Source: Campylobacterales bacterium (GTDB taxonomy: Bacteria > Campylobacterota > Campylobacteria > Campylobacterales > Hydrogenimonadaceae). Taken from it: DNA of 15,241 bases. The notes beneath the pieces are model-generated. The model saw only the letters and a list, made by a program, of their open reading frames with translations, was not told where the DNA came from and did no database searches. The position numbers were made by a program, and so were the translations under genes. Positions 1-15,214 of this stretch are shown here, in pieces. How positions within the stretch are numbered: position 1 is the stretch's first letter; every line of letters begins with the position of its first letter. Where the stretch lies: assembly GCA_027067015.1 (NCBI GenBank), contig JAMOMS010000078.1, positions 1 through 15,241 on the forward strand. The letters run 5' to 3'.

Positions 1-452
1 TGAATATTGAAGGGTTGGCCTATGAAAACGAAAGCCAGCGTCTTTGGCTTGGATTACGTTCCCCCCTGCAATCTCAAAAAGCGGTATTGATTGCCGTGGA
101 AAACCCGAGGGAAGTGCTCATAAAGGGGGCAGAACCTCTTTTTGGAGAGCCGCTCTTTCTTGATCTTGACGGTCGGGGGGTGCGCGGGCTTTGCTATGAT
201 GACAAACGTCACGGATTTTGGGTCTTGGCCGGGAGTGTGGATGAACGTAAAGGGAGTTTTGGACTCTACTTTTACGACTTGCGGCGCCATCGCCTGAAGC
301 GGATAAAAGACGCGCCCGATCTTGGCTTTGCCGAAGGGGTCACGGTGGTACTTCGCCACAGCGGCGCGCCGGCTTTGCTGATAGTGGATGATAACGGCAA
401 AAAACCCAACAAACCGGCGACTTACTATATGATTAACAAGGGGGGATTGTGA
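1..452 (+). CDS. DUF3616-like beta-propeller protein, 3' fragment
   Basis: The reading frame is open from base 3 to the TGA at 450-452 (149 codons), so this is the C-terminal part of a gene that begins before the window. A TTG at base 15 lies inside the conserved block and is unlikely to be the true start. The visible sequence opens with IEGLAYENESQRLWLGLRSP. It continues with GVRGLCYD, a hydrophobic strand ending LAGSVDERKGSF, then FAEGVT and LLIVDDNG. This order (EGL, LWLGLRSP, G(I/V)R, LAG, EG, DD-G) is the pattern I associate with DUF3616, a family of predicted beta-propeller proteins of unknown function. No signal peptide can be judged because the N-terminus is missing. Its stop overlaps the next start (GTGA at 449-452), so it is probably co-transcribed and translationally coupled with the porin. 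A direct role in Pel production is inferred only from position. Confidence 0.7.
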   Translation, partial: NIEGLAYENESQRLWLGLRSPLQSQKAVLIAVENPREVLIKGAEPLFGEPLFLDLDGRGVRGLCYDDKRHGFWVLAGSVDERKGSFGLYFYDLRRHRLKRIKDAPDLGFAEGVTVVLRHSGAPALLIVDDNGKKPNKPATYYMINKGGL

Positions 453-2086
453 AACGGTGGCTACTCATGTCTGCGACCCTTATAGCGGCGCAGGCGGCAC
501 CGACCTGCTACAGCGTGCAGTTGCTCTCTTTACCGCTCTCTCGTGAAGATGCCCTTTTAAAAAGGGCGTGGCCCAAAGATTGCAAAGTCATGAGAATCGG
601 CAGGGCGGTGACGGTACGGTGCGGGTGCTACAGCCGTTTCGCGCCTGCCAAAAAGAGGCAAGAAGCCCTATTGGAGACTTACAAAGGGGCGGATGTGGTG
701 ACCAGCTACCGCTACCGGTTTGATCAAAACGCAACGGGTGTGGCTGTTGAGTCCAACGTCCAAAACCGTGATCGCAATGCGACACAGGAGGCCAAAACCG
801 TGCGGGTGAAAGAAGAGGGGTCTCAGGCGGGGACGGAAGAAAAGGGCGTAGCCCGTTTTTTGAACGATTTTGAAAAGAGTGTACCCGAGGAAGAGGCGGT
901 AGATAGATTCGACGTCCCCTCCGATAAACCCAAACATGAAAAGATCCGCTATGTTAGGCGCCGACCGCCCCATTTTCGCTATCAGGACTATCTGCGCGCC
1001 TTGCGGGCTCATCCGGGCGGCGCCTGGGATTACCGTTACCGTTTCGGGGGACAGGTGAGCTATGACGCGGCATACGTGGATGAGGCGGATGACAAATATT
1101 TTGACCACGACTTTCGTCGGATACGCCTCTTTCATGAGGGGAGTTTTTGGGATGACGCGCTCTTTTACCAGCTTGAGTATAGCGTAACCGGTGTTAATCA
1201 CTACAAAGACCTTTATATCGGTGCCCAGTATGACAAAAAAGGCAAGCCCTATTGGCGCCTGAAGGCGGGAAACATCAAGATTCCCTTTTCACTGGAGGGG
1301 TACACCTCTTCTAAATATCTTACCTTTATGGAGCGCTCTTTAGCCGAGGCTTACGCCGAAAACCGTAAGCTGGGCGTGGAGGCCCTGACTGCCGGGAAGA
1401 TCGCCAAAAAGGTGTACGGCAATTTCTTTGTACACGCCTTTAGCCGTTCGGTGGATGAGCGCTTGGACGGTAAAGAGGATCATCCCGGTTTCGGTACACG
1501 GGCCACATTGACCTATAAAGCCTCCAAAAACCGGACTATGATGATCGGCGGCGCGTGGATGCGGCAAAATTACAGGGATGACAAGATCAAAATCAACCAG
1601 TCGGTAGAGTCCGATCTGGATGATCACAAGTATGCGTCGGTCAAGATCAAGCATGTCGATCATGTGGATCGGGCCAATGTAGAGCTCTATACGGCGTATA
1701 AAAAAGCCTATGTGCAGGGTGAATATACTATGATGGATATTTACGCGCGCAAAGGGGATTACCGTTATAGCGGTTACTATGTGCAGGCGGGCTATTTTTT
1801 GGAGGGTCAGGGGCGCCGTTTTCGCAAAAAGACGGCGACGTTTGGCCGCATTCGTCCCCTGCGTCGGCTGGGTGATATGGAGGTGGCGTTTCGGTATGCG
1901 CATATCGATCTAAACGACAAAGATGAGCAGGGAGGCAGTCAGAGTGATTATACCTTCGCCTTTAACTGGTACATGACGCCGGAGTGGCGGTTGATGTTTA
2001 ACTATGTTTTGGCCTATCCGAAAGATACGGACGAGTATGACGGGATGTTGCAGGTGTTTCAAGGGCGCCTGCTCTTCTCGTTTTAG
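449..2086 (+). CDS. SPOR-like domain fused to OprO/OprP-type porin
   Basis: 545 aa from a GTG start that overlaps the previous stop; AAGGGGGG (438-445) supplies the ribosome site. Residues 1-17 form a signal peptide ending in AAQA/A. Residues 20-88 resemble a SPOR domain (YSVQLLSLPLS, then a C-x12-C-G-C block at C45, C58, C60, then an Ala/Lys-rich helix). Residues about 92-175 are a charged, low-complexity linker. From about 195 the protein reads as a barrel: alternating aromatic strands, a segment GNIKIPFSLEGYTSSKYLTF at 274-293 followed by MERSL, and a final LLFSF with C-terminal Phe, the usual recognition signal of outer-membrane barrels. The IPFSLE-TSSKY-TFMER block is characteristic of the phosphate-selective porin O/P family. 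SPOR domains generally bind glycan-denuded peptidoglycan, so the N-terminus may anchor the porin to the cell wall. The substrate is unknown; phosphate selectivity should not be assumed. It could serve as an accessory outer-membrane component of the Pel locus, but only position supports that. Confidence 0.85.
   Translation: MKRWLLMSATLIAAQAAPTCYSVQLLSLPLSREDALLKRAWPKDCKVMRIGRAVTVRCGCYSRFAPAKKRQEALLETYKGADVVTSYRYRFDQNATGVAVESNVQNRDRNATQEAKTVRVKEEGSQAGTEEKGVARFLNDFEKSVPEEEAVDRFDVPSDKPKHEKIRYVRRRPPHFRYQDYLRALRAHPGGAWDYRYRFGGQVSYDAAYVDEADDKYFDHDFRRIRLFHEGSFWDDALFYQLEYSVTGVNHYKDLYIGAQYDKKGKPYWRLKAGNIKIPFSLEGYTSSKYLTFMERSLAEAYAENRKLGVEALTAGKIAKKVYGNFFVHAFSRSVDERLDGKEDHPGFGTRATLTYKASKNRTMMIGGAWMRQNYRDDKIKINQSVESDLDDHKYASVKIKHVDHVDRANVELYTAYKKAYVQGEYTMMDIYARKGDYRYSGYYVQAGYFLEGQGRRFRKKTATFGRIRPLRRLGDMEVAFRYAHIDLNDKDEQGGSQSDYTFAFNWYMTPEWRLMFNYVLAYPKDTDEYDGMLQVFQGRLLFSF
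506..712 (+). other. SPOR-like Cys module of the porin (residues 20-88)
   Basis: Protein-level domain. It starts with Cys20 followed by YSVQLLSLPLS, has Cys45, Cys58 and Cys60 spaced C-x12-C-G-C, and ends with a helix (AKKRQEALLETY) and a VVTSY strand. The same architecture and exact cysteine spacing occur twice in PelB (12 kb downstream). Unlike the PelB copies, it lacks a fourth cysteine at the end but has an extra one just before the first strand. Confidence 0.7.
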
Positions 2087-2097
2087 GGAGAGAACGG

Positions 2098-2625
2098 ATG
2101 AAAAGAGAGTGGATACGGCTTTGGACGCTTTTGGCGGCGGCCCTTTGGCTGGCCGGTTGTACGACGGCCCAGATTTCCGTTACGCGCAAGGGATTGCCCA
2201 AAGTCTATGAGGATTACAACGAGACCTATCAGATCAAACGGGATATCCGGGTGGTGCTCTTTCGGTTTGAAAACTATACCGACGCCCCCGAAGCGGGGTT
2301 AAGAGCCGCCAATTTGATGGCGGGGGTTTTACAGGCCAAAGGGTATCGGGTCTATCCGTACCTCAAAAAGGCGCCCAAAAGTTTGAAAAAAGCGCGAAAG
2401 ATTGCCAAAAAAGCGGGCGCGCGCTACTTTATGACCGGCGGGGTGAGCGAGTGGCGCTACAAAAACGGCATTGACGCCGAGCCGGCCGTGAGCTTGCGGC
2501 TTACCCTTTACAAAACCAAAAACGCCAAACCTGTCTGGAGCGCGACCGGCTCTGACAGCGACTGGGGGAACGCTACCCTCGGTACGACGGCGCAGAATCT
2601 AATGAAGGAGATGTTGGAACGATGA
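2098..2625 (+). CDS. pelC: PelC-like outer-membrane lipoprotein, copy 1
   Basis: 175 aa with an ATG start 11 bases after the porin stop and a purine-rich GGGAGAG just upstream. The N-terminus is a lipoprotein signal (KR, hydrophobic core, LAGC lipobox) with acylated Cys21. A linker of about 30 residues leads to the compact domain: VVLFRFENYTDAPEAGLRAA (about 52-71), VLQAKGYRV, a Lys-rich helix, GGVSEWRYKNGIDAEPAVSL (114-133) and PVWSATGS. The NYTD-PEAG and GGVSEWRYK-GID-EPAVSL blocks match PelC. In Pseudomonas, PelC is a lipoprotein that forms a dodecameric ring on the periplasmic side of the outer membrane around the PelB channel and guides the cationic polymer; the size also fits (about 172 aa). 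The Lys-rich 85-106 region is a difference from copy 2. The stop overlaps the next start (ATGA), so the two copies are coupled. Confidence 0.85.
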   Translation: MKREWIRLWTLLAAALWLAGCTTAQISVTRKGLPKVYEDYNETYQIKRDIRVVLFRFENYTDAPEAGLRAANLMAGVLQAKGYRVYPYLKKAPKSLKKARKIAKKAGARYFMTGGVSEWRYKNGIDAEPAVSLRLTLYKTKNAKPVWSATGSDSDWGNATLGTTAQNLMKEMLER

Positions 2626-3113
2626 AAAAAATCTGGAAAAAGAGCGGATGGATGTTGATAGCGGGCGCGCTTGCGCTTGGCGGTTGTGCGACCAAGGAGT
2701 ATGTGGCGAGCAAACCTTTTGCCCAGGTGGGTGCCGAGCACAATGTCACCGCCGTGACGCTTCTGGCGCTTCGCAACTACACCGACGTACCCGAAGCCGG
2801 CAAACGGGCGGCCAACCTGGTGGCCGGCGTGTTACGGGCCAAAGGTTTTGCTGTCAAAGAGGCGTTTAGGAAGCGAAAAAAAGGGGATCCTTGCGAGATG
2901 GTCGATGATCGTTACGTCATGGACGGCGGGGTGAGTGAATGGCGCTACAAAACCGGTATTGACGGCGAGCCGGCGGTGAGTTTGCAGTTGACTCTGCACG
3001 ATTGTCAAAGCAAGAAAATTCTCTGGAGCGCCACGGCGTCAAGCAACGACTATTGGCGGGCCTCTATCGGCACGACGGCCCAGGCGGTCATTGAGAAGAT
3101 GTTTAAAGATTAA
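2622..3113 (+). CDS. pelC: PelC-like outer-membrane lipoprotein, copy 2
   Basis: 163 aa; its ATG overlaps the stop of copy 1. The lipoprotein signal ends in LGGC, with acylated Cys22. The core domain parallels copy 1 block by block: NYTDVPEAGKRAANLVAGVL (52-71), AKGFAV, GGVSEWRYKTGIDGEPAVSL (102-121), ILWSATAS and a terminal GTTAQ helix. The two genes are therefore clearly paralogous, and both retain the residues that define the family. Differences: copy 2 has a much shorter linker after the lipid-anchor cysteine and two extra cysteines, Cys91 and Cys128, that could form a disulfide. By homology it sits at the inner face of the outer membrane as part of the PelB-PelC export complex. Whether the two copies form one mixed ring, two stacked rings or alternative rings cannot be seen from sequence. 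Confidence 0.85.
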   Translation: MKKIWKKSGWMLIAGALALGGCATKEYVASKPFAQVGAEHNVTAVTLLALRNYTDVPEAGKRAANLVAGVLRAKGFAVKEAFRKRKKGDPCEMVDDRYVMDGGVSEWRYKTGIDGEPAVSLQLTLHDCQSKKILWSATASSNDYWRASIGTTAQAVIEKMFKD

Positions 3114-3116
3114 AGC

Positions 3117-3124
3117 AGAAGGGG
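3117..3124 (+). promoter_or_regulatory. ribosome binding site deciding the pelD start
   Basis: AGAAGGGG lies 5 bases before the TTG at 3130. The upstream in-frame TTG at 3091 has no comparable purine-rich site and would overlap copy 2 of pelC by 23 bases, so 3130 is preferred. Confidence 0.55.
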
Positions 3125-3129
3125 CACGT

Positions 3130-4365
3130 TTGTTTCGCTACCGCGGGTTTACTTTTCTGGCTTTGTATGAGTCGCTGGCGTTGGCGGCGCTTTTGATAGG
3201 GCTTTCGTTTTGGTTGCACGGAAGCGATCCGCTTTTTGTCCACTCCCATTTGCCGCTGATGCTTATTCCGCTGGCTGTTGTGACGCTCTATTTCGGATAT
3301 GCCGGCGGTTTGCCCTTTTTGGCTCTCTTGGGGGCGGGAATGTGGTACGGTTATGAGACTTTTGCCCTCAAGCCTTTTTTGGTTTATGCCGTCATGACGC
3401 TTTTGATGGCCGAGTTTCATAGCTATTGGCAAAGACGCATAGAGCAGTTGGAGAGTAAAGGCGACTATATGCGTCGCAAGTTTTCCGAGATGACGTCGGC
3501 GTTTTATATGCTCAAGATCTCTCACGATCAGCTGGAAAAAAACTATGTCATCAAACCCATGAGCTTACGAAACGCCATTGGGGAGATTCGCAATAAACTG
3601 GCTCAAGAGCCCCAAGAGTCGTTTGCGCAACTCTTAAGCCTTTTTGAGAAGAATTTTTCGGTTCAATCCGCGGTTATCGCGTGGAAAGAAGAGGATGGGG
3701 CGTTGCATATCAAAGCGGCGACGCAGGATCTTTTTTTTGAGAGAGATGACCCGATGGTTCAAGAGGCGCTGGAGCGAAAAGAGCCGGTTTATGTCTCCGG
3801 GGACGTGGATACGGGAAGTCGTTATATAGCGGTACTTCCCGCATTGGTTGAGGATGAGGTTAAGGGATTGCTTTGTATCGGCAAGATGCCTTTCCTCTCT
3901 TTTAACAAAGATACGCTGGTCTCTTTGACGGTTTTGCTGGAGTATTTTGGATTTGAACTTCTTCGCGCCCGTTGGCTTCGCCGGTTTGGTAACAGGATTG
4001 AGCAGGTCTCTTCAGCCATGTCGTTTGAGTTTCAGCGTCTTGAGAAGATCGAAAAAACTTACGGCCTGGAGTCTTCCGTTATCGCCTTTAATTGTCAAAA
4101 CGATTTGAGCCATACCCTACTGCGTCAACATATTGAAAAGGGGTTAAGAGCGCTGGATATGATGGATGTGGTAGAGACCAAAGAGCGAGGGAAGGTGATT
4201 TTGGTGCTTCTTCCCTTCTCCGGCCAGGCGATGGTGGAGGGGTATTTGTCCCGCCTCAAAAAGAGGCTGGAACGTGAGCATGAAGAGGTGTGCCCGCATG
4301 TTATCTTCTCCATGCGATGGTTGCCCCAGCTTCGCCAGTATCTAGAGGGGAAAGGGAGTCGGTGA
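3130..4365 (+). CDS. pelD: PelD, inner-membrane c-di-GMP receptor
   Basis: 411 aa from the preferred TTG at 3130 (a longer form from TTG 3091 would add 13 residues). About four membrane segments fill residues 8-98, followed by a polar helix or coiled coil (about 100-135), a GAF-like domain (about 140-285) and a degenerate GGDEF-like domain (about 290-411). No GGDEF catalytic motif is present, so it should not make c-di-GMP. An RxxD inhibitory-site motif (RALD, Arg340/Asp343) is followed exactly 35 residues later by Arg375 in EGYLSRLKKR. This matches the spacing of Arg367/Asp370 and Arg402, which bind c-di-GMP in Pseudomonas PelD. PelD activates Pel synthesis post-translationally when c-di-GMP is bound, working with PelE, PelF and PelG at the inner membrane. 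The stop overlaps the GTG start of pelE. Identification is strong from topology, motif and gene context; the start codon is the weak point. Confidence 0.88.
   Translation: MFRYRGFTFLALYESLALAALLIGLSFWLHGSDPLFVHSHLPLMLIPLAVVTLYFGYAGGLPFLALLGAGMWYGYETFALKPFLVYAVMTLLMAEFHSYWQRRIEQLESKGDYMRRKFSEMTSAFYMLKISHDQLEKNYVIKPMSLRNAIGEIRNKLAQEPQESFAQLLSLFEKNFSVQSAVIAWKEEDGALHIKAATQDLFFERDDPMVQEALERKEPVYVSGDVDTGSRYIAVLPALVEDEVKGLLCIGKMPFLSFNKDTLVSLTVLLEYFGFELLRARWLRRFGNRIEQVSSAMSFEFQRLEKIEKTYGLESSVIAFNCQNDLSHTLLRQHIEKGLRALDMMDVVETKERGKVILVLLPFSGQAMVEGYLSRLKKRLEREHEEVCPHVIFSMRWLPQLRQYLEGKGSR
4351..4358 (+). promoter_or_regulatory. ribosome binding site deciding the pelE start
   Basis: AAAGGGAG precedes the GTG at 4362, whose last two bases begin the pelD stop (GTGA). 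The in-frame upstream start at 4290 would give a 72-base overlap and a non-membrane N-terminus, so the GTG is favoured. Confidence 0.5.
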
Positions 4366-5288
4366 TCGCGCAAGCTGAAGTTTTGCCCGTTGACGTGCTT
4401 TTGCTTTCGGCCCTCTTCTCCGCGCTGGTGGGGCGCTTGACGGTTGGCCGGCTCTATCGTAAACAAGGGTGGCGCGTGATTGCCTTTTTTGCTCTGATGG
4501 GGGCGGCTATTCCTGTACTTGGCGTGGTGGTTAGTTTTGCGGTGGCGTTGATGCTAAGAAGGAGCAAAACCAAACTGGTACGGGGAGGGACACACAATAT
4601 CGATCTGGATGAGTTGATTTTAAGCTTTCCCGTTGCCCGTCGGACTTTTGGGGAGGGAGCTTTGAGTATTTTGCTGAATAAACAGTATATGCCCGCCAAT
4701 GTCAAAATTCATGCGCTTTCTGCCCTGGAGTCACAGATCAACCGCACCCATTTGGCGATTATCAAACAGGCTTTAAGCGACAAAGAGGATGAGGTACGCC
4801 TCTTTTCGTTCTCTATTATCGATAAGATGGAAAAGCGTATCAACAGCCAAATTCACCGCTACCGTCAGATTTTTGAAAAGGGAAAACACAAACGCGAAAA
4901 GATGGCCGCGGCCAAGGAGTTGGCCCGTCTTTATTGGGATCTTGTCTATTTTGAGTTGGCCGATGAGACGCTCCAGCACTTTCTGATTGAAGAGACGTTG
5001 CGTTTTATTCAGTATGTGTTAAAAAACGATTACGACAATATTGCCATGCATATGTTGCTGGGCAGGGTCTATCTTCACAAGAAGATGGATGAGTCGGCAC
5101 AAAGGGAGTTTGCTTATGTGCTTGAGAGTGATCCCGCTCAGTACGGCGTGGTGGCCCCTTATTTGGCGGAGATCTTTTTTCGACAAGGAAACTACCGTAC
5201 CGTTCGATCGCTTATGATCCATGACGATAATGAACTGCACTACAGCATTCAACTCTATCCGGTTGTCTTGTTGTGGAAAGGGGAGTAG
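4362..5288 (+). CDS. pelE: PelE, inner-membrane TPR protein
   Basis: 308 aa from a GTG that overlaps the pelD stop. Two hydrophobic segments at about 11-27 and 38-65 form an N-terminal hairpin, followed by a positively charged RRSKTK. The remainder is helical. It carries a conserved-looking DELILSFPVARRTFGEGALS region (about 84-103), alternating charged helices, and TPR-like pairs toward the C-terminus (MHMLLGRVYLHKKMDESAQR, YLAEIFFRQGNYRTV). Pseudomonas PelE (about 329 aa) has the same plan, two membrane helices plus cytoplasmic TPRs, and joins PelD and PelG in the inner-membrane complex that recruits PelF. Identity rests on that plan and on its place between pelD and pelF; short TPR proteins are not diagnostic alone. 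AAAGGGGAG at its 3' end serves as the ribosome site of pelF. Confidence 0.82.
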   Translation: MIAQAEVLPVDVLLLSALFSALVGRLTVGRLYRKQGWRVIAFFALMGAAIPVLGVVVSFAVALMLRRSKTKLVRGGTHNIDLDELILSFPVARRTFGEGALSILLNKQYMPANVKIHALSALESQINRTHLAIIKQALSDKEDEVRLFSFSIIDKMEKRINSQIHRYRQIFEKGKHKREKMAAAKELARLYWDLVYFELADETLQHFLIEETLRFIQYVLKNDYDNIAMHMLLGRVYLHKKMDESAQREFAYVLESDPAQYGVVAPYLAEIFFRQGNYRTVRSLMIHDDNELHYSIQLYPVVLLWKGE

Positions 5289-5291
5289 GGT

Positions 5292-6824
5292 ATGTCCAAA
5301 CATTTACCTAAAGCCGATGAAGTGGATGTGATGATTTTGGCCGAGGGGACATACCCGTATGTCAAAGGGGGGGTCTCTTCATGGATTCATCAGCTTATTA
5401 CCGGACTGCCCCATAAACGTTTTGGGATCTGTTTTATCGGCTCCAGAAAAGAGGATTACGGCGATATACAATATGATCTGCCTTCAAACCTGGTCCATCT
5501 GGAAGTGCACTATCTTTTTATGAGCTCGGAAGATCCCGCGCCCAAAAAACTTTCGGTTTCTTCTTCGGCGATGCAGGCGTTGGAAGCTTTGCACGACGAG
5601 TTTCGTACCAATCGTGACGAGTTGCCCGCATTGATGCATTCGGTGGATTTTTTTCAAAAGTCTCTGACCTTTGATCACTTTTTGCATGCCAAAGAGATAT
5701 GGCAGTTTGTACGGCGTCGTTATTATGAAAAAGCTTCCGAAATGCCCTTTATTGAGTATTTTTGGAGTGTACGCAATATGCATCGACCCATTTGGGTGAT
5801 AGCCGATATTGTGGCCGGTTTTCCCAAGGTGGGTCTTTTTCATGCCCCCTCAACCGGATACGCGGGGATGATCGGTACGTTGGGCAGTTATCAAAACGGC
5901 GCGCCCTTTTTGTTGACAGAACACGGTATCTATACAAGAGAGCGCAAGATTGATCTGTTAACGGCGGAGTGGATCAGCTACCATAAACTCTCTTTGCTGG
6001 CCCAGGCTGAGGAGATGAACTATATTAAAGAGCTTTGGATCCGATTTTTTGAGCGCATCGCCCGTATGGCTTATCGACGGGCCAGTGAAATCTTTTCACT
6101 CTATCGCGGGGCCAAGAATGTGCAGATCACCTTTGGCGCGCCGGAAGAGAAAACCCGGGTTATTCCCAACGGTGTCGATGTCGAAGGGCTTGGCGCGCTG
6201 GTTGACAAGCGTCAGGCAACGGTACCCAAAGTGGTCACACTGATTGGACGGGTGGTTTCGATAAAGGATATTAAAACTTTTATCCGGGCCATGCGTATCG
6301 CCGCCGATGAACTGCCCGATATTGAGGGGTGGATTGTAGGACCGGATGATGAAGACCCCGAATACGCCGCCGAATGTCGCCAAATGGTCGAGGCGTTGAA
6401 ACTGGAGGGGTGCGTGAAGTTTTTGGGGTTTCAAAAAATTCACGATATTTTGCCCAAAACCGGGTTATTGACGCTTACATCCATCAGCGAGGGGATGCCG
6501 CTAGTGATTTTGGAGGGGTTTGCCGCCGGTGTACCCTGCGTGGCCACGGATGTGGGCAGTTGCCGAGACCTGATTTACGGCGGGATCGATGAGGAGGATG
6601 AGGCCATCGGCGCCGCCGGTGCCGTTACAGGCATTGCCAATCCGTCGGATCTGGCGAGTGAGTATGTTCGGTTTTTAACGGACCATAAAAGATGGAAAGA
6701 GGCGCAACGCTGTGGTTTGAAAAGGGTGAGGCGCTACTATCGGCAAGACCAGTTTTTAGAGCACTATGATACCATCTATGACCGCTATTTGAAAAAGGAG
6801 AGCCATGGCGGGCATCGGCTTTGA
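5292..6824 (+). CDS. pelF: PelF, GT4-family glycosyltransferase (Pel polymerase)
   Basis: 510 aa, close to the 507 aa of Pseudomonas PelF. The ATG lies 3 bases after pelE, preceded by AAAGGGGAG (5277-5285). No signal peptide or membrane segment is visible, so it should be cytosolic, docked on the PelD/E/G complex. The N-terminal domain has the PelF signature AEGTYPYVKGGVSSWIHQLI (about 17-36). In the middle are LLTEHGIYTRERKIDLL and a VIPNGVDVEGL block, where the C-terminal GT-B domain starts. The nucleotide-sugar E-x7-E motif is at Glu400/Glu408 in SISEGMPLVILEGFAAGVP, followed by VATDVGSCRDLI. These place it in family GT4, and it is the only glycosyltransferase in the window. It polymerises UDP-activated amino sugar into Pel. 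No UDP-GlcNAc epimerase is seen in the window, so the precursor supply must be encoded elsewhere. Its last 20 bases overlap pelG. Confidence 0.95.
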   Translation: MSKHLPKADEVDVMILAEGTYPYVKGGVSSWIHQLITGLPHKRFGICFIGSRKEDYGDIQYDLPSNLVHLEVHYLFMSSEDPAPKKLSVSSSAMQALEALHDEFRTNRDELPALMHSVDFFQKSLTFDHFLHAKEIWQFVRRRYYEKASEMPFIEYFWSVRNMHRPIWVIADIVAGFPKVGLFHAPSTGYAGMIGTLGSYQNGAPFLLTEHGIYTRERKIDLLTAEWISYHKLSLLAQAEEMNYIKELWIRFFERIARMAYRRASEIFSLYRGAKNVQITFGAPEEKTRVIPNGVDVEGLGALVDKRQATVPKVVTLIGRVVSIKDIKTFIRAMRIAADELPDIEGWIVGPDDEDPEYAAECRQMVEALKLEGCVKFLGFQKIHDILPKTGLLTLTSISEGMPLVILEGFAAGVPCVATDVGSCRDLIYGGIDEEDEAIGAAGAVTGIANPSDLASEYVRFLTDHKRWKEAQRCGLKRVRRYYRQDQFLEHYDTIYDRYLKKESHGGHRL

Positions 6825-8181
6825 GCTAAGGAAGGTTCTAAAAAAAGGGAGTCTGCTCTCTTTAGGCAAAATGTACGCCTACGCGGGTTTGCTTAGCTCC
6901 GGCCCGTGGGTGATCTCTATTTTGGCCATCGTGGCGGTGGGCTTTATCAATGTGGCCACTTTTAAAAGCGCGACACACACGGTGCAGTTTCAGGTTGTCA
7001 TCACCTATGCCATCGCGCTGGCTTCAAGTTTGATTATTACCGGATTTGTACAACTTCCCTATACACGCTATATCGCCGACTTAATTTATGCGGGTAAGCG
7101 TGAGGAGGTTTTACCCAGCTATTTTGGCCTTCTGTTCGTGACCTGGTTAACAGGGCTTCCCTTTATTTGGCTGGCGCTGTATTGGGTCTTCCCCCATATG
7201 GATTCGCTCTTTTATCTGGAGGCGGCAACCGTTTTTTTGGTGCTTTGCGGGGTGTGGCTTTCCAATGTGATAGCCACCAGTTTGAAGTTTTTTAAAGGGG
7301 TGGTGGCCGCCTATTTTGTCAGCTACGGGCTTATTACTTTGGCGGCGTGGTTGTTTCCGGGGGATTTACATACATTACTGCTCATATTTATTGCCGGTAA
7401 TGTATTGTTACTGCTTTTATTAATGATCTATATCATACGCGAGTATGGTGCGCCGAGGTTTATGCACTTTGGCTTTTTTAACAGAAAGAAGTTTTACTGG
7501 CGTATCGGTATCGCCGGCCTTTTTTACAACCTGGGTGCCTGGAGCGATAAGTTTGTCTTTTGGGCCCACCCGCTAACAGGCAATCCCGTGATCGGCAAAA
7601 TTCACGCCTCGGTGGTGTACGATCTGCCCATTTTTATCGCCTACCTCTCTATTTTGCCCGGTATGGCGATCTTCTTTTACCGACTGGAAGCCGATTTTGC
7701 CGAAAAGTATGAGCGCTACTTCAACGCGGTGGTTAAAGACGGTACACTGGGACTGATTGAGCACTATCGCAATGAGATGGTAGAGACGGTACGTCACGCC
7801 ATTCGCGAGATTATTGTCTATCAGGGCATTGTGGATATACTGATTTTTCTGGCCGCGCCGACCCTTTTTGCCGTTTTGAAAATTCCTGTGCTCTACTTGA
7901 ACCTTTTTTATGTTTTGACGGTGGGGGCGTTACTGCAACTTGGGTTTATGTCGGTTTTGGCTATTTTGTTCTATCTGGATAGGAGAACGGAGGCCATGTG
8001 GTTAAGCATTGCCTTTTTTGTGCTCAATACCTTTTTAAGTCTGGCTACGATCTATATGGGGCCGACTTGGTATGGGTACGGTTATGCCGTCTCTTTGTTA
8101 ATTGTATTTGCTATCAGCCTTAAAGTCATTGATAACGTGATGGAGAATTTGGATTATGAAACCTTTATGCTTCGGTATTAA
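6805..8181 (+). CDS. pelG: PelG, multi-pass inner-membrane Pel transporter
   Basis: 458 aa, almost identical in length to Pseudomonas PelG (456 aa). The ATG overlaps the end of pelF and follows AAAAAGGAG (6792-6800). The N-terminus MAGIGFELRKVLKKGSLLSL, followed by a glycine/serine-rich first helix with GPWVISI, is the family hallmark. I count about eleven or twelve hydrophobic segments. A polar loop (about 289-340, RLEADFAEKYERYFNAVVKD and a charged helix) interrupts the second half, as is usual for this family. PelG resembles the MOP/Wzx flippase superfamily and is thought to move the growing polymer across the inner membrane with PelD, PelE and PelF. The 3' end overlaps pelA by 26 bases. 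No frameshift or missing segment is evident. Confidence 0.94.
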   Translation: MAGIGFELRKVLKKGSLLSLGKMYAYAGLLSSGPWVISILAIVAVGFINVATFKSATHTVQFQVVITYAIALASSLIITGFVQLPYTRYIADLIYAGKREEVLPSYFGLLFVTWLTGLPFIWLALYWVFPHMDSLFYLEAATVFLVLCGVWLSNVIATSLKFFKGVVAAYFVSYGLITLAAWLFPGDLHTLLLIFIAGNVLLLLLLMIYIIREYGAPRFMHFGFFNRKKFYWRIGIAGLFYNLGAWSDKFVFWAHPLTGNPVIGKIHASVVYDLPIFIAYLSILPGMAIFFYRLEADFAEKYERYFNAVVKDGTLGLIEHYRNEMVETVRHAIREIIVYQGIVDILIFLAAPTLFAVLKIPVLYLNLFYVLTVGALLQLGFMSVLAILFYLDRRTEAMWLSIAFFVLNTFLSLATIYMGPTWYGYGYAVSLLIVFAISLKVIDNVMENLDYETFMLRY

Positions 8182-10906
8182 ACGTATCGTTTTGCTTGTT
8201 GTTTGGCTTCCGGTACTGCTTTTTGCCTCACCTCAAAGTGCCGTGGTCTACTACGGAGACGACATCTCCTGGCCGATGGTCGGGGTGCATGACTATATTA
8301 TTCTTGAACCTTCGCATGTGCACACCGACACCCACGGCTTTAAGATCTATCGCGATAAAGTTTACGCTTATGTCAGTGTAGGGGAAGCAAGAAAGAGACG
8401 CCCCTGGTTTCAAAAGCTCAAGAAAGAGTGGATTTTGGGCGAAAACAAGGCGTGGGGCAGTCATATTATGGATGTCTCAAACGAGGCTTATCGTCGTTTT
8501 TTGATGCGGGAGGTCTTTGCGCCGCTTTATCGACAAGGTTTCCGGAACTTTTTCCTAGATACCTTAGATAGCTATCGGTTGGTGAGCAAGCCGGATGCGT
8601 ACAAACGCTATGAAGAGGGTATCGTGGCGCTGGTGAAGGCGATTAAGCAAAGTTATCCTAAAGCGGGGATCATTTTAAACAGGGGGTTTGAGCTTTTAAA
8701 TCAGCTTCACGACCAGGTTGACGCCGTACTCTTTGAGTCTTACTATCGGGGGCTTGGCGGAAAGGATTTGGCGTATGTCAAAAAGAGTGATCAAGACCGT
8801 GCGTGGCTAGATAAACAGATTGCCAAAGCAAAGCGTTTCAAGATACCGGTTATATCTTTGGAGTATCTAAAAGATCCCTTCTCAAAAGAGGCGGAGCGTA
8901 TTCGTCAAAAGCTCTTGGATAAAGGATTAATCCCTTATATCTCTGACAAAACGTTACAGCGATACGGTCAAAGTGCCTATCGTGTTCAAAAAAGAGAGAT
9001 TTTGATTCTTTACAACGGGGAAGGGTTTGAGCATAGCAACGGTGAAGATTCCAGCGCCCACCTGATTACCTCTTTACCGATAGAGTATTTGGGGTATGTC
9101 CCGGTATTAAGAGATATTCGACGCGGTTTGCCCAAAGGACACCCGGAAGATCGTTTTGCGGGGGTGGTGATCCAGGTAAACCGCGAGAGCGAGCACGGCA
9201 ATGGCGTGGCCGAGTGGGTTATGCGTATGCATGAGCGGCATCTGTCGGTCGCTATCACCTTTTTATGGCCCTCACTGGAAAGCGGTTTTTTTGAGAAGTT
9301 GGGTCTAAAGGTCTATCGTAACCGCGCCAAGATGAAAGTGGGGGCCAAATATACGGTTGAGGTAAACAAGTATCACCATTTTGAGATGAAACCGGTGGTA
9401 CAGTATCATGATACCTATTTGACGCCTGAAGACGCCAACGCGACGTTTCGTTACAAAGACGCCGACGGGCATGAGAATACGCTGGCCGCCATTACCCCGT
9501 GGGGAGGCTATTGCGTGGATGAGAGTTTTACGGTAGAGTTGGGAAAAGATACCCTCTGGATCGTTGATCCGTTCCGTTTCTTTAAAGAGGCGTTGCGCCT
9601 AAAACCGATTCCCGTTCCCGACCCCACAACCGAAAACGGCCGCAGGGTTTTGTTTACCCATATCGACGGTGACGGTATTATGAACAGGGCGGAGTGGAAC
9701 CAGGCCTATTCGGGGGAGGTGATTTATGAGAAGATCCTAAAACACTATCATATCCCCCATTCGGTTTCGGTGATCGGCGCGGAGATCATGCCCAACGGTC
9801 TTTATCCGGAAGAGTCGCCGCAACTTATGGCATTGGCTAGAAAGATATTCTCGCTTCCGAATGTTGAGCCCGCGACCCATATGTTTAGCCACCCTTTTGT
9901 CTGGTACAAGATCAAGCCGGACGGTTCGCTGGATTCCAAATATCGCTTGGATGTGCCTGGGTATCGTTTTTCGTTGGATAGCGATATCAAAGGCTCTCTT
10001 GACTTTATTACCCAAAAGCTCCTGCCCAAAGGCAAAGCGCCGGCCAGACTGATTTTTTGGTCGGGTGATTGTATGCCGACTATTAAGGTGCTCCACTATG
10101 TTTACAGCCATGACTATCTGGCTATCAACGGCGGAGATACCTATATTACCCGCGACCATCCCTGGATGAGTTACATAGCCCCGCTGGGCATTAAAAAGGG
10201 AGCTTACTGGCAAGTCTATACCGGCCAGCAAAATGAAAATGTCTATACCAACGAGTTTCACGGCCCGTTTTGGGGCTTTAAGAAAGTGATTCAGACATTT
10301 GAGATGACCGACAAACCCCGACGTTTCAAACCGGTCAATATCTATTACCACTTCTACTCCGGCTCCAAACGGGCCACGCTCAAAGCGTTACAGTATGTTT
10401 TTGATTGGGCCATGAAGCATCCGCTTATACCGATGTATGCTTCCGATTACATAAAAAAAGTGCTTGGCTTTTATGACGCTTCTTTGGCGTTGGGGCCCAA
10501 GGGCGAGTGGATAATCGCGGGGGTCAAAGATGTTCGCAGTGTGCGACTGCAAACCAAAGAGCCCAAAGGGATTCGGGGTGACGGCTATGTGGGCAGATCG
10601 CGCACCAAAACAGCGCTCTATCTGCATTTTGACGGTCGCAATCGGATACGTTTTGCGTCAACCGACCAAAAAGAGCCTTGGGGCTTGGGTGAGTCAAACG
10701 CGCGGGTGGTCTCTTTTGTCAAAGAGGAGAAGGGCGCGCGATTGCAATTAAGAGGGTATGTTCCGCTAACGGCGCTCTTTGATATGCAAGAGGGTTGTCG
10801 GGTTACGGCGCGTCCCAAACCGGATAAGAAGAGCGTGCGAAACGGGCACGTAAGATTTGTGTATAAAAAAGCCAAAGAGGCGTGGTTCAATGTATCCTGT
10901 CAATAA
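8156..10906 (+). CDS. pelA: PelA, periplasmic Pel hydrolase and deacetylase
   Basis: 916 aa (Pseudomonas PelA about 948). The ATG lies inside the end of pelG, with GGAG at 8142-8145. A signal peptide covers residues 1-25 (KR, LLVVWLPVLLFAS). Residues about 28-290 form the glycoside hydrolase domain (GH166 type), with FLDTLDSY (Asp135, Asp138) and VLFESYY, whose Glu194 is the likely counterpart of the catalytic Glu218 of Pseudomonas. A Rossmann-like region follows (about 290-480). The deacetylase domain starts near 495, with HIDGDG (Asp504, Asp506) and the metal-binding pair His575-x3-His579 (THMFSHPF). The remaining C-terminus is probably a beta-sandwich. Both active sites look intact, so the enzyme should cut and partially deacetylate the polymer in the periplasm, giving it the positive charge Pel is known for. 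Its position late in the operon, after pelG, differs from pelA-first in Pseudomonas. Confidence 0.95.
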   Translation: MKPLCFGIKRIVLLVVWLPVLLFASPQSAVVYYGDDISWPMVGVHDYIILEPSHVHTDTHGFKIYRDKVYAYVSVGEARKRRPWFQKLKKEWILGENKAWGSHIMDVSNEAYRRFLMREVFAPLYRQGFRNFFLDTLDSYRLVSKPDAYKRYEEGIVALVKAIKQSYPKAGIILNRGFELLNQLHDQVDAVLFESYYRGLGGKDLAYVKKSDQDRAWLDKQIAKAKRFKIPVISLEYLKDPFSKEAERIRQKLLDKGLIPYISDKTLQRYGQSAYRVQKREILILYNGEGFEHSNGEDSSAHLITSLPIEYLGYVPVLRDIRRGLPKGHPEDRFAGVVIQVNRESEHGNGVAEWVMRMHERHLSVAITFLWPSLESGFFEKLGLKVYRNRAKMKVGAKYTVEVNKYHHFEMKPVVQYHDTYLTPEDANATFRYKDADGHENTLAAITPWGGYCVDESFTVELGKDTLWIVDPFRFFKEALRLKPIPVPDPTTENGRRVLFTHIDGDGIMNRAEWNQAYSGEVIYEKILKHYHIPHSVSVIGAEIMPNGLYPEESPQLMALARKIFSLPNVEPATHMFSHPFVWYKIKPDGSLDSKYRLDVPGYRFSLDSDIKGSLDFITQKLLPKGKAPARLIFWSGDCMPTIKVLHYVYSHDYLAINGGDTYITRDHPWMSYIAPLGIKKGAYWQVYTGQQNENVYTNEFHGPFWGFKKVIQTFEMTDKPRRFKPVNIYYHFYSGSKRATLKALQYVFDWAMKHPLIPMYASDYIKKVLGFYDASLALGPKGEWIIAGVKDVRSVRLQTKEPKGIRGDGYVGRSRTKTALYLHFDGRNRIRFASTDQKEPWGLGESNARVVSFVKEEKGARLQLRGYVPLTALFDMQEGCRVTARPKPDKKSVRNGHVRFVYKKAKEAWFNVSCQ
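10874..10880 (+). promoter_or_regulatory. ribosome binding site for the membrane-anchored TPR gene
   Basis: AAAGAGG lies 9 bases before the ATG at 10890, inside the end of pelA. It favours this ATG over the in-frame TTG at 10857. Confidence 0.5.
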
Positions 10907-11861
10907 GCCAAAACGCGTCATCTCAACCAAAGAGATACTCTTTTTGGTAGCCTTTTTTGGTACGATTTTGGGGCTTTTGCACTCAAAAGATCTCTTCCAG
11001 CGGCTGTTGTTGAGTGAACAGAGCAATTATGACTTGACCGAAGCCTACCTTAGGAATCTTGTACGCCTAAAACCTGATGATACCAAAACGCTTTATGAGT
11101 TTGCCAAAGTATTGATCCACCAGGGTAAATATGATTTGGCCAAGACGATGCTGTCGGCTCTGGAGAGCTCCAAAAAGGGCGATATCCGTCAAAAAGCCGT
11201 CTATCTGCGTTATAAGCTTTTAAAACAGGAGTTGGGAGTCACAAAAAGTCCTCGGCAAAAGCGTGATATTTTAAACGCATTGCATCAAGTGTTACTTCGT
11301 ATTGCCCAAAAAGAGCACTCGCCCCAAGCGCTTCAAAAATGGCTCAAAGAGAGTAAAGAGTTGGGGGATGAGAAGATCGCCTTTTTGCTCTTAAAACGTA
11401 TTGCCAAATCTAGAGACGGCGATATTGGTATAATTGAAAAAACTTATTATGAGGCGCTCAATAGGCATGATCTCAAAACCGCGCAATGGGCCATGCAACA
11501 GCTCTATCGCCAGCGCAAAAAATGGTTGGGTGATTATGCCAAAGATCCAAAAGGGTTTAGATCCAAAACAAGGATATTGGTCGCGGAGTTGCTCAAAGCG
11601 CGTCAAAACGCCAAAGCGGCCGGATTGATGGTGGAACTTTACGGCCAAAGCAAAGCGCGTCAAGATCTGTTTGACGCCTTGGATTACCTGATGTGGGGCG
11701 GACACTATAAAGAGGCGGTTACATTGGCCAAGCGTTTTGAGAAGATTTTGACACGTGATAAAACGGGGGCCAAAAAGATCATTGAACTCTATCTTGCCGC
11801 GGGACGTACCGACGATGCGCGGCGACTGTCGTTACAACTGCTTAAAAGGGTGTATCGGTGA
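10890..11861 (+). CDS. membrane-anchored TPR protein next to pelB
   Basis: 323 aa from the preferred ATG at 10890 (17-base overlap with pelA). The N-terminus is short and basic (NKPKRVISTKE), followed by one hydrophobic segment, EILFLVAFFGTILGLL, at about 15-30, without an obvious cleavage site. It therefore looks like an inner-membrane anchor with the rest in the periplasm. The body is all helical, with TPR-like pairs: YDLTEAYLRNLVRLKPDDTK, LYEFAKVLIHQGKYDLAKTM, LFDALDYLMWGGHYKEAVTL, IIELYLAAGRTDDARRLSLQ. It is very Lys/Arg/Gln-rich. I do not recognise a named family. Pseudomonas PelB is a single chain with a membrane-proximal N-terminus and about nineteen periplasmic TPRs that recruit PelA. 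The present gene, coupled to pelB by a GTGA overlap, could supply an inner-membrane-tethered part of that TPR scaffold. This is an inference from domain type and position. Confidence 0.75.
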   Translation: MYPVNKPKRVISTKEILFLVAFFGTILGLLHSKDLFQRLLLSEQSNYDLTEAYLRNLVRLKPDDTKTLYEFAKVLIHQGKYDLAKTMLSALESSKKGDIRQKAVYLRYKLLKQELGVTKSPRQKRDILNALHQVLLRIAQKEHSPQALQKWLKESKELGDEKIAFLLLKRIAKSRDGDIGIIEKTYYEALNRHDLKTAQWAMQQLYRQRKKWLGDYAKDPKGFRSKTRILVAELLKARQNAKAAGLMVELYGQSKARQDLFDALDYLMWGGHYKEAVTLAKRFEKILTRDKTGAKKIIELYLAAGRTDDARRLSLQLLKRVYR

Positions 11862-14800
11862 GAGGACTGGTTGTTGTTCTTATTTTGACGGTTTTGGGTT
11901 GGGCAAGTTCGCGTTACTCGGTGCAGGTTGCCAGTTGGCCGGTCTCTAAAGGCATATCGGCCAAAGCGTTGGTCTCTTCGTCTTGTTACGTGGTCGAAAG
12001 AGAAGGGTTTTATACCATGCGTTGCGGTTGTGAGGGCCCTTTTAACGAGGCGTTAAAAAGATTGCTTCCACGTTATAAGAAGCGATTTGAGGGCGCCTTT
12101 TTGGCCAATTGCGACGTGCATGCGTATGAAAATCGTCACCATGCCTTTAAAAAAGAGAAACCGCAGGCTGTTGAGAGCAAGAGAAAATATGCCATCCAAA
12201 TTCTTAGTTTCCCGCTTGGAAAAGGGTCGTTACTGGGGAGATTACAACCTAAAAAAGGGTGTTACAGGGTTGTTCGAGAGAGCTTTGAAGCGATACGATG
12301 CGGCTGTTTTGACCAATACAAAGAGGCCAAACAGGCGTACGGTACGGCTTTTATTACCTTTTGTGATGAAAAAGCTTTTGCCCAAAGCGTTCAAAGCCAG
12401 GATGATCACGTAACGTCCGTCACTTTGGATGCAGAAGCACCCAAACCGGTTTCGCAAGAGGCCGTCACGCCATCTATGCCCAAAAAACAAAAAACACCTT
12501 CTCAAACGGTGAAAAAAGATCTTTTGGACAACGATCTTCTTGATCGTTTGTATGAGAGTTTTATCTATACGGGTGACGCTTTGCACGCTTTGCAGACGGC
12601 GGAGCTTGCGTTGCGTCAGGGAAAAGGCCGGCGCAAATGGCTCAAACGCGCCATGGAGACGGCTGAAATGGTCGGTGATGAGCAAAAGGTGCTCCATTAT
12701 ACTCAAGCCTATTTTCACTCTTCTCATGATAAGTCGGTATTGAATCGGCTGATTGACCATGCCATGGGCAATTACCACTATGAACAAGCCCTTTACCTGC
12801 TTTCTGAACGCTATCGTCTGGGAGGAGACGAGAAAGATATCCCGGCGATCGTGTCACTCTATGAGAAGGTGGGTGAGCCGGAAAAGGCGCGCGATCTGTT
12901 GTATAAAGCCTGGAAACGAAATCCTCAACGTCGAAAGTGGCTGGAAGACGCTTTACAGATCTCTTTGGATATGGGTGATATTGACGGAGCAAAACCTTTG
13001 GTGAGGATTTTGCAAAAACAGGGCATTCGCAATATCAAAGAGGCGGAGCAGGTGGCGTACTTCTATTTTCTTAACCGAAAACCGCAAAAGGCTTTTTCGA
13101 TTTTGACGCGTCATAATTTGCAACCGCCGGTCATAGAGCGGGGAGGAGCCGACTATTACCGTAAAATTAGCGGTTTGGGCTGGATGTTGGGCTATTATAA
13201 AAAAGCCGCGGACGCTTCGTATCGGCTCATTAAGGCCGGGTTGGCAGATAAGAATGATTACTTCCGTGTCATAGCGGTTTATCAAAACAGTGACAAAGAG
13301 AAAGCCTTTGAAACGGCGTTGGACGGTTTGCGAAAATGGCATGAAAAGAGCTATTTTTATACCGCCGCGGCGTTGGCGATGGATATGCAAGACGACCAAA
13401 GGATGCGGCTGGTTTTTGAGGCGTTGAATGAACCGTTAAAAAAGATTTTAAAAGATGAGGCCGATTACCATATTTTGCTGGGCGGTTACCTTATGCGTAC
13501 CGGCAGGCAAAATGAGGCGCTAAAAGAGTTGCAGACAGCTTATACGCTGGCCCCTGAAAGTACGCAGGTTATGACGGCGTTGATGTGGTTTTACCTGGAT
13601 AACAAAATGGATGATCCTTTGCGCCGTCTACTGCAAAAAATCGAGGCCGACGGGGCCGATCCGGCGCTCTATCCGGTGCTTATTGCCGCCCATATGCGCC
13701 TTCAACAAAGCGACAGGGCCCGTTTTTATATGCACCGTCTCTACAAAGACAAAACGCTTAACGGCGATGAGCGGGCCAATTTGGCCTATCTTTACCAGGC
13801 GCAGATGCGCATGGCGCTTTTTAAAAAAGAGATGGGACGCCTCTTTGAGACGCTCAGCCGGGAGGCCAAAAAGAACCCGAAACTTTTGGAAAACGGGGAG
13901 TTTTGGGACGCCTACTTACGTTCCGCGATGGAGTTTGTGGGGGCGCGCCGTTACCGTGCTCTGCTCAAAAAGGCCAAGCCTTATCTCAAGCCTGACCGCT
14001 ATAAAGAGATTGTGCTTTTGTGGGATTTGCGTAGGGCCGAGTATGAGAGGGCCAGAGAGGAGTATAGGGCATGGGAAAAGATAGAGCCCTGGATCGCTCT
14101 TTCTTTGGCCATGCATTTTGGCGACCAGGATGCCGTAGAGCGGCTTTTGTACCGCTATGACGCCGTTCTTCCCATTCGTGACAGGGTGGAAGCGGCCCGT
14201 ATGACAGGACAGATCGCCATGGCGCAAACCCTGGCCTTTGAGGGGCTGGAAGCCAACGAGCGCGACTACCTGCTCTATTATCAACGGGAGCAGTTGCTCA
14301 AAAGCGAAAGCGACGGGTTGAGCGTGGGGGCGAGCCTGAGCAGTCGTGACAGCCTGGCCAGGCGCAAGGTGGAGATTACAAACCGCAACGCTTTGCCGGG
14401 CGGTTTTTGGCTGAGTGAACGGCTCTGGTATGCCCAAAATGACAAACCGGGCAAATACATACGCCACATGCCCGACTCCCAATGGGGCGCGGACGCAACG
14501 ATAACCGCCCGGTATGACCGTGGCAAGGTCAGCGCGACGGCCGGCGCACGCGACGGCATGGCAAGTTATGCGACGGCGGGCGTGGAAGGGGAGTGGCAGG
14601 TGAGTGACCGCTGGCGTTTGGGCGGCGGCTACCATTTTCGTGAAGATACGGAAGATACCACCTGGCTGATGTTGGGCGGTTACGCGAACCGCGCCGAAAT
14701 ACGCGCCGATTACAAGTGGCTTAACTCCACCTCCGTCGGCTTGCGCATCCAGCGTCTTGACTACAAGGGACAAGACGGCGAAGATGCCGGCAAAGGGTGG

Positions 14801-15214
14801 AAGTACGGCGCGTCACTCTTTCGCGTTTGGCGCACCGGTTACCCTGATATACAGTTTTCGCTTTACGCCGAAAAAGGCGACTTTGAGCAAAACGGTGTCG
14901 CCGAAGGGGTTTTGCGCTCTTTAATGGTCTTGCCCGCATCGGCGGCGCCGTCTGATTATTCCATTGTCGGGGGCGGCGTTTATGTGGGTTATTTGAACCG
15001 TAACGACTATGTGCGAAGCTGGCGTCCTTTCGCGGGCGTGATGCCCTATTACGATTATGAGTCCCAAACCGGCTCGGCCGGCGCGGAGATCGGCGTGGGG
15101 GGCTCGCTTTTGCAACAGGATCATCTCAATATCAGCCTGCGCTATACCCCGGCGCTCTACCGGGGACAGGAGGATATTGTCACACTCTATATGCTTTACA
15201 GGTTGATGTATTAA
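11858..15214 (+). CDS. pelB: PelB, TPR scaffold and outer-membrane export barrel with two SPOR-like domains
   Basis: 1118 aa (Pseudomonas PelB about 1193) from a GTG overlapping the previous stop; the ribosome site is weak. A signal peptide covers residues 1-17. Two SPOR-like modules follow, at about 19-90 and 110-176, each with C-x12-C-G-C plus a later cysteine (Cys43/56/58/85 and Cys135/148/150/169). A Pro/Lys-rich linker (about 177-222) leads to a long array of TPR-like helices to about residue 815. These include QTAELALRQGKGRRKWLKRA, EKVGEPEKARDLLYKAWKRN and LMRTGRQNEALKELQTAYTL. From about 820 the protein is a beta barrel; it has PSDYSIVGGGVYVGYLNR then YVRSWRPFAGV, which match the PelB barrel, and it ends in the aromatic YRLMY. 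PelB forms the outer-membrane channel for Pel and organises PelA through its TPRs, with PelC capping it. The SPOR-like domains are not part of the Pseudomonas description. The barrel section is markedly more G+C-rich than the TPR half. Confidence 0.92.
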   Translation: MRGLVVVLILTVLGWASSRYSVQVASWPVSKGISAKALVSSSCYVVEREGFYTMRCGCEGPFNEALKRLLPRYKKRFEGAFLANCDVHAYENRHHAFKKEKPQAVESKRKYAIQILSFPLGKGSLLGRLQPKKGCYRVVRESFEAIRCGCFDQYKEAKQAYGTAFITFCDEKAFAQSVQSQDDHVTSVTLDAEAPKPVSQEAVTPSMPKKQKTPSQTVKKDLLDNDLLDRLYESFIYTGDALHALQTAELALRQGKGRRKWLKRAMETAEMVGDEQKVLHYTQAYFHSSHDKSVLNRLIDHAMGNYHYEQALYLLSERYRLGGDEKDIPAIVSLYEKVGEPEKARDLLYKAWKRNPQRRKWLEDALQISLDMGDIDGAKPLVRILQKQGIRNIKEAEQVAYFYFLNRKPQKAFSILTRHNLQPPVIERGGADYYRKISGLGWMLGYYKKAADASYRLIKAGLADKNDYFRVIAVYQNSDKEKAFETALDGLRKWHEKSYFYTAAALAMDMQDDQRMRLVFEALNEPLKKILKDEADYHILLGGYLMRTGRQNEALKELQTAYTLAPESTQVMTALMWFYLDNKMDDPLRRLLQKIEADGADPALYPVLIAAHMRLQQSDRARFYMHRLYKDKTLNGDERANLAYLYQAQMRMALFKKEMGRLFETLSREAKKNPKLLENGEFWDAYLRSAMEFVGARRYRALLKKAKPYLKPDRYKEIVLLWDLRRAEYERAREEYRAWEKIEPWIALSLAMHFGDQDAVERLLYRYDAVLPIRDRVEAARMTGQIAMAQTLAFEGLEANERDYLLYYQREQLLKSESDGLSVGASLSSRDSLARRKVEITNRNALPGGFWLSERLWYAQNDKPGKYIRHMPDSQWGADATITARYDRGKVSATAGARDGMASYATAGVEGEWQVSDRWRLGGGYHFREDTEDTTWLMLGGYANRAEIRADYKWLNSTSVGLRIQRLDYKGQDGEDAGKGWKYGASLFRVWRTGYPDIQFSLYAEKGDFEQNGVAEGVLRSLMVLPASAAPSDYSIVGGGVYVGYLNRNDYVRSWRPFAGVMPYYDYESQTGSAGAEIGVGGSLLQQDHLNISLRYTPALYRGQEDIVTLYMLYRLMY
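11912..12127 (+). other. SPOR-like Cys module 1 of PelB (residues 19-90)
   Basis: RYSVQVASWPVS first strand, CYVVEREGFYTMRCGC (Cys43, Cys56, Cys58), an NEALKRLLPRYKK helix, then a final strand with Cys85. The cysteine spacing C-x12-C-G-C is identical to module 2 and to the porin module. Confidence 0.7.
12185..12385 (+). other. SPOR-like Cys module 2 of PelB (residues 110-176)
   Basis: KYAIQILSFPLGKG first strand, CYRVVRESFEAIRCGC (Cys135, Cys148, Cys150), a KEAKQAYG helix and a final strand with Cys169. Parallel to module 1, from which it is separated by about 20 mostly charged residues, so the pair looks like an internal duplication. Confidence 0.7.

Follow-up and report, generated by a model that had tools for sequence, protein, structure and literature searches.

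The DNA analyzed here (the window, 15,241 nucleotides from a Campylobacterales bacterium of the Hydrogenimonadaceae) makes up one entire contig (G000:C78) of a draft genome and carries a pel operon with genes for a porin, two PelC-like lipoproteins, PelD, PelE, PelF, PelG, PelA, a TPR protein, and PelB. The small pel subunits are named from their position and from the operons of relatives, and the PelF equivalog was found in PelB's own operon. Two outer-membrane proteins of this operon, the porin and PelB, start behind their signal peptides with a cysteine-bearing module that appears to be a divergent SPOR domain, and this module is the subject of our study. All features lie on the + strand. 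The porin gene (449-2086) encodes a signal peptide (449..499, judged by eye from the sequence), the module (500..721), a charged linker of ~105 residues that is probably flexible, as inferred from its sequence (722..1045), and a Porin_O_P barrel (PF07396; residues 200-545, 1046..2083; E 1.2e-38, 133.8 bits against a cut-off of 20.9). The PelB gene (11858-15214) encodes a signal peptide (11858..11908, also judged by eye), two modules (11912..12133 and 12185..12394), a TPR scaffold (PF13429; 13031..13753; E 1.4e-35), and a C-terminal beta-barrel (PF24604; 14309..15205; E 4.5e-33). Just upstream, a separate TPR protein (10857..11861, TPR_19 match) has a hydrophobic N-terminal stretch that looks by eye like a membrane anchor; it corresponds to the N-terminal part of one-piece PelB proteins (1213-1218 aa, L032-L034), so that PelB is split in the window.

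The module was first described, in an initial annotation made from the sequence, as a C-x12-CGC pattern occurring once at the N-terminus of the porin and twice in PelB, with the same order of elements in both proteins, and both statements hold. The back-translated pattern (TGY-N36-TGYGGNTGY) has three matches in the window, all on the + strand and in frame (581-628 in the porin, 11984-12031 and 12260-12307 in PelB), against a mean of 0.07 and a maximum of 1 in shuffled windows, with 0/200 shuffles reaching 3. The three segments can be aligned end to end, with invariant Y, Q, S, P, C, RCGC, A, and K. Every window module also has a fourth cysteine, overlooked earlier. In the porin (cysteines 20, 45, 58, and 60; 506-508, 581-583, 620-622, and 626-628) this is Cys20, directly before YSVQ, whereas in PelB it lies near the last strand, in NCD or FCD: Cys85 of module 1 (12110-12112; the others are 43, 56, and 58) and Cys169 of module 2 (12362-12364; the others are 135, 148, and 150). 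The cysteines of both window proteins are confined to the modules (4/4 in the porin, 8/8 in PelB).

That the module adopts a SPOR-type fold, as had been proposed, is borne out by three lines of evidence, from which we regard it as a probable divergent SPOR subfamily. Comparison of its profile with that of SPOR (hhalign) gives a score of 36.0 over 71 columns, a value attained by 0/100 column shuffles. The AlphaFold2 model of the porin module (pLDDT 93.1) has the beta-alpha-beta-beta-alpha-beta (RNP-like) fold, so that the structure prediction suggested in the initial annotation returned a SPOR fold; in the model of the PelB pair, the fold of module 2 was not matched separately, and its helix 2 (in 12260-12364) is ~7-8 residues shorter than in the close relative P0002. 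Finally, the module matches the SPOR domains of CwlC, RlpA, DedD, and DamX; PelB module 1 likewise gave SPOR matches. With these PF05036 members it shares the predicted fold, the strand-1 glutamine, and a register across the whole domain. It differs from them in its two inferred disulfides (C-x12-CGC), its N-terminal placement before barrels or TPRs, a reduced basic patch, a C-terminal TYKYRF motif, and scores that fall mostly under Pfam detection. One relative (L082) does exceed the curated Pfam SPOR cut-off, which is a threshold for detection (23.7 bits vs 21). Pfam and NCBIfam searches of the window proteins left the module unnamed, the profile of alignment A5 found nothing among PDB sequences at E up to 10, and protein searches queried with PelB 1-200 or with porin 1-130 yielded just two matches each, one of each pair being 100% identical to its query. 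Foldseek ranked CwlC best for the porin module (9.7e-3); for the PelB pair, 2hiy (a Streptococcus protein, with a low TM-score) came first and CwlC second (1.1e-2).

The residues that read glycan in SPOR domains are partly retained. In the portion of the RlpA study available to us, the side chains touching glycan are Gln270, Arg302, and Arg309, with Arg311 in a basic patch and Phe274 as a hydrophobic contact (PMC6895207). Among the 55 modules that carry both cysteines of the C-x12-C hairpin, the strand-1 glutamine at the RlpA Gln270 place is kept in 51, including all three of the window, and an arginine at the Arg311 place, two before Gly, is likewise present in 51; a serine three residues past the glutamine, as in FtsN and DamX, is found in 52. 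Binding of peptidoglycan glycan by the module is thus plausible as far as sequence can indicate.

The cysteines themselves are best understood from their pattern of loss. From 132 module hits we removed 10 incomplete ones and collapsed the rest at ~75% similarity, leaving 76 modules, a set that includes some ordinary SPOR domains and comes from a search model favouring cysteine-bearing ones. We number the cysteines C1 (flanking the first Tyr of strand 1), C2 (strand 2), C3 and C4 (the CGC), and C5 (close to where strand 4 ends). The pair C2 and C3 is complete in 55/76 modules and wholly absent from 21/76, with neither ever found alone, and exactly two of the trio C1, C4, and C5 are present in 63/76, with none in 13/76. 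Four rows of the trio count were read by hand: L060, which has two additional cysteines, one before and one past the domain; L132, an open frame of 99 aa that has a cysteine at the end; window PelB module 2, where C5 is displaced by a short helix; and L113 (2022), whose second cysteine is 8 residues past the hit. The module rows are not independent events, yet the cysteine changes fall in separate branches of the module tree. L082/L084 keep C1 and C4 alone, and L098 keeps C2 and C3 alone. L101 has C5 instead of C4, where its sister L099 has C4; C5 stands instead of C1 in the window PelB type and in five modules altogether (one read by hand); and four cysteine-poor SPOR-like relatives have only C1 and C5. 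Because cysteines are lost in pairs across these 76 nonredundant modules, the sequences imply two putative internal disulfides, C2-C3 and a second one formed by two of C1, C4, and C5. By strand counting (DSSP), C2 faces C3 across a two-residue turn, and these two would pair across the hairpin of strands 2 and 3; the second CGC cysteine would pair with the strand-1 cysteine in the porin type or with the strand-4 cysteine in the window PelB type. The strand register of C1 and C4 is ambiguous, so that their pairing is deduced from paired loss by itself. In six pel-linked porins, 24/24 cysteines lie inside the module and 6/6 porins have none elsewhere, and in 27 PelB proteins 122/155 cysteines lie inside modules, a distribution that fits what two such disulfides would predict. 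A precedent is the SPOR domain of FtsN, in which C252, near strand 1, is joined to C312, ahead of strand 4 (PMC6895207). This disulfide, from the strand-1 region to the loop before strand 4, lies near the C1 and C5 places of the module, but it is a single one, in a division protein with no CGC and no exporter link described there (PMC6895207). The module may offer a clean case of disulfides shifting between neighbouring strands of one fold.

The initial annotation had also called for a genome-wide search and for the linkage of the module to pel. Matches to an 8-row module model (E up to 0.01) occur in 59/398 genomes of Campylobacterales; the weaker of these matches are ordinary or cysteine-poor SPOR-like domains. 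In a phylum sample of 397 genomes, whose share from other orders is not established, 15 have a match at E up to 1e-9, all Campylobacterales. Two short peptide patterns run against the contigs of 84,980 species gave 20 loci, with titles naming Sulfurimonas, Sulfurospirillum, Arcobacter, Campylobacterales, or just bacterium; the patterns are narrow, and these loci are no proof of lineage restriction. The expected linkage was found in that the module occurs at the N-terminus of PelB and on Porin_O_P porins heading pel operons, but it is no pel-specific feature, as other loci carry it too. Two Alginate_exp (PF13372) proteins carry it (L083, L092), and the L083 exporter adjoins genes for an AlgG-like beta-helix protein, an HlyD-type protein, a GT2, and a UDP-glucose/GDP-mannose dehydrogenase. 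In L088 the gene that bears it, whose product belongs to no Pfam family, is flanked by LolA-like and MMPL genes, an arrangement that L089, L095, and L096 resemble by eye. Two TPR proteins also bear it (L081, L098), and the L081 locus has secretin, T2SSE/MshEN, and prepilin-like genes.

Some further SPOR-like sequences are worth recording separately. A PelF-like glycosyltransferase (DUF3492) adjoins an outer-membrane efflux protein (OEP) with a SPOR-like N-terminus in L081:1687-6419, and also in L106; L081 has in addition a weakly PelG-like protein (PF16933, E 0.0027, under the cut-off), and could possibly be a PelFG/OEP export cluster, with no PelB within the stretch examined. On another contig of the window's genome (G000:C279; L109:3778-5316 and an incomplete end gene), two adjacent divergent genes start with SPOR-like domains lacking CGC (PYCLYIGKW, NYCIQLSS); the contig ends inside one of them.

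The window is not alone in having two outer-membrane proteins from a single operon share this module. A module-bearing porin, with a Porin_O_P barrel, accompanies a module-bearing PelB in five further operons (L038 in G049, L195 in G508, L196 in G488, L197 in G546, and L198 in G533). L199 has a porin with the module on a contig that stops before pelB, while L200 and L128 have a porin barrel ahead of pelC with its N-terminus outside the stretch, and the L200 PelB has two modules. PelB is present in 36/200 genomes of G049's family; 22 of the 31 frames that we judged intact have a module hit, and the remaining family PelB comprise four incomplete ones and that of G399, which is split between contigs with a module on its N-terminal piece. 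A module porin stands alongside 5/22 of the module-bearing PelB (a lower bound, because contigs end) vs 0/9 of the module-less ones; this difference gives no statistical support, and the link from porin to PelB module is suggestive. On the module tree, built on 90 columns and with rough support values, the window porin module clusters with those of PelB from another family (96/75) and the window's two PelB modules lie in a separate branch (95/89), so that a recent local copy between the two proteins, which we had considered, is rejected. Porin modules fall into more than one group, and 4 changes are needed to account for them.

The split of PelB offers a context for the module. PelB of Pseudomonas shares with that of the window the TPR scaffold, C-terminal barrel, and pel operon, but is one piece, whereas in the window a gene of its own encodes the TPR part that has the hydrophobic N-terminus, and the barrel protein opens with modules; the parts of the Pseudomonas work that we could draw on place the protein possibly at the inner membrane through an N-terminal helix (PMC12141448). 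Neither "SPOR" nor "peptidoglycan" occurs in the text of that paper. Fission of PelB is already known from aquatic thermophiles, according to the excerpt consulted (PMC7112194). In our loci, which were selected for a hit to the module or to PelB and are thus not an unbiased sample, 26 PelB proteins that reach the barrel have the module and 0/26 are fused to the N-terminal TPR part, the three fused PelB all lack the module, and nine further entries are neither fused nor module-bearing, some being fragments and one the C-terminal piece of G399.

In the reading that we favour, with a rough probability of 0.58, the module is stapled by disulfides and tethers outer-membrane exporters to peptidoglycan. 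This reading starts from computed features (the presence, recurrence, predicted fold, SPOR homology, and paired cysteines of the module, and its absence from the fused PelB seen), from which we infer disulfides in the cell, peptidoglycan binding, and the role of tether. Under this proposal, a divergent SPOR domain directly behind the signal peptide of Campylobacterales outer-membrane exporters would fold in the periplasm after export, with a sheet that retains, from the SPOR glycan site, the glutamine of strand 1 and one arginine, and its likely job would be to hold the barrel to peptidoglycan glycan strands via a flexible linker. On PelB, the module would replace the inner-membrane tether, which the secreted TPR-barrel protein loses when the anchored TPR protein is split off; the porin would be held likewise through its linker, and a common periplasmic target for the two proteins, as the initial annotation had suggested, is plausible. 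A comparable mode of action is that of OutB/GspB, in which an outer-membrane export pore is held to peptidoglycan, but by a separate scaffold protein, with no module built into the pore named in the part of the source available (PMC9239104).

Several observations weigh against this tether. The structures behind both the fold and the tether are all predictions; Pfam SPOR (PF05036) gives no match to the window porin or PelB even at E 1 and matches only 1/24 modules of alignment A5 (best E 4e-4); and Foldseek of the module models gave no match under E 0.001. At the glycan site, the RlpA Arg309 place is mostly Thr/Ala and the Phe274 place is variable. Such a tether is not required, because 9/31 intact PelB of G049's family gave no hit to the module, and fusion and module are both lacking in several PelB. 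As for the disulfides, PelB of other species do have cysteines outside the module, 33/155 in the 27 PelB, with 19 PelB having at least one outside and only 8 having none. Searches of the window's genome (~92% complete) turned up neither DsbB (PF02600) nor VKOR (PF07884), and those of 17 further genomes of its genus gave no DsbB, although disulfides seem to be present in exported proteins of the operon; the window's genome does encode a DSBA-family protein with CPFC.

An unlikely alternative is that the SPOR-like sheet binds the exported polymer and not peptidoglycan, acting at the mouth of the pore as a domain for capture or gating. In SPOR domains, the glycan site recognises N-acetyl groups and carboxylates, as described in the part of the source available (PMC6895207), and the module sits on Pel and alginate-type exporters. 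Pel and alginate have such N-acetyl groups or carboxylates. The module is, however, also found on a protein that has MMPL, LolA-like, and acyltransferase genes as neighbours and, in MSHA-type loci, on TPR proteins; we know of no polysaccharide export at these MMPL/LolA-like or MSHA-type loci, and to our knowledge the porin is not a Pel exporter. We hold it quite improbable that the modules are docking domains, joining porin to PelB or exporters to a common periplasmic protein without disulfides. The six operons in which both proteins carry the module speak for docking, and the conserved TYKYRF, just past the compared SPOR stretches, could be a contact, but the module porin was seen with only 5/22 module-bearing PelB of one family (a lower bound), other systems have the module but lack that porin, and the window's porin and PelB modules fall in different branches. 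The disulfide link between porin and PelB raised in the initial annotation is not supported, given cysteines that are kept or lost pairwise within the module and porins that have none elsewhere. A redox-active or metal site, suggested by CGC being a CxC motif and by four cysteines within one small sheet, is very improbable, since either pair is lost without the other and C5 can take the place of C1; of the initial reading of CGC as a structural disulfide or such a site, structural disulfides survive, as inferred from paired loss, with the CGC cysteines seeming to pair with partners of their own and not with each other.

A wider form of the tether proposal is tentative: one stapled SPOR subfamily may act as a lineage-specific plug-in wall anchor, tying unrelated Campylobacterales export machines (Pel, alginate-type, MMPL-linked, and MSHA-type) to stem-peptide-free peptidoglycan, replacing the inner-membrane tether on split PelB, and placing polysaccharide export at wall-remodelling sites. 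If true, a wall-binding module inside Pel and alginate-type pores would be a direct and testable answer, in one lineage, and would account for the retention of a PelB severed from its inner-membrane anchor. In the titles and abstract openings searched, no SPOR domain was named in Pel or alginate exporters, nor was such an exporter domain named in that literature on SPOR with exopolysaccharide export, porins, Campylobacter, or Sulfurimonas. The SPOR fold itself is already known; what would be new here is the disulfide-stapled subfamily on outer-membrane exporters.

Two further features of the pel operons emerged from the comparison. PelC-like lipoprotein genes stand in tandem in the window (2098-3113) and in L040, with one copy in the other pel loci compared. 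Six operons (L038, L119, L122, L124, L128, and L130) have two pelA-like genes each, one encoding ~849-861 aa upstream of pelB and the other ~907-939 aa downstream.

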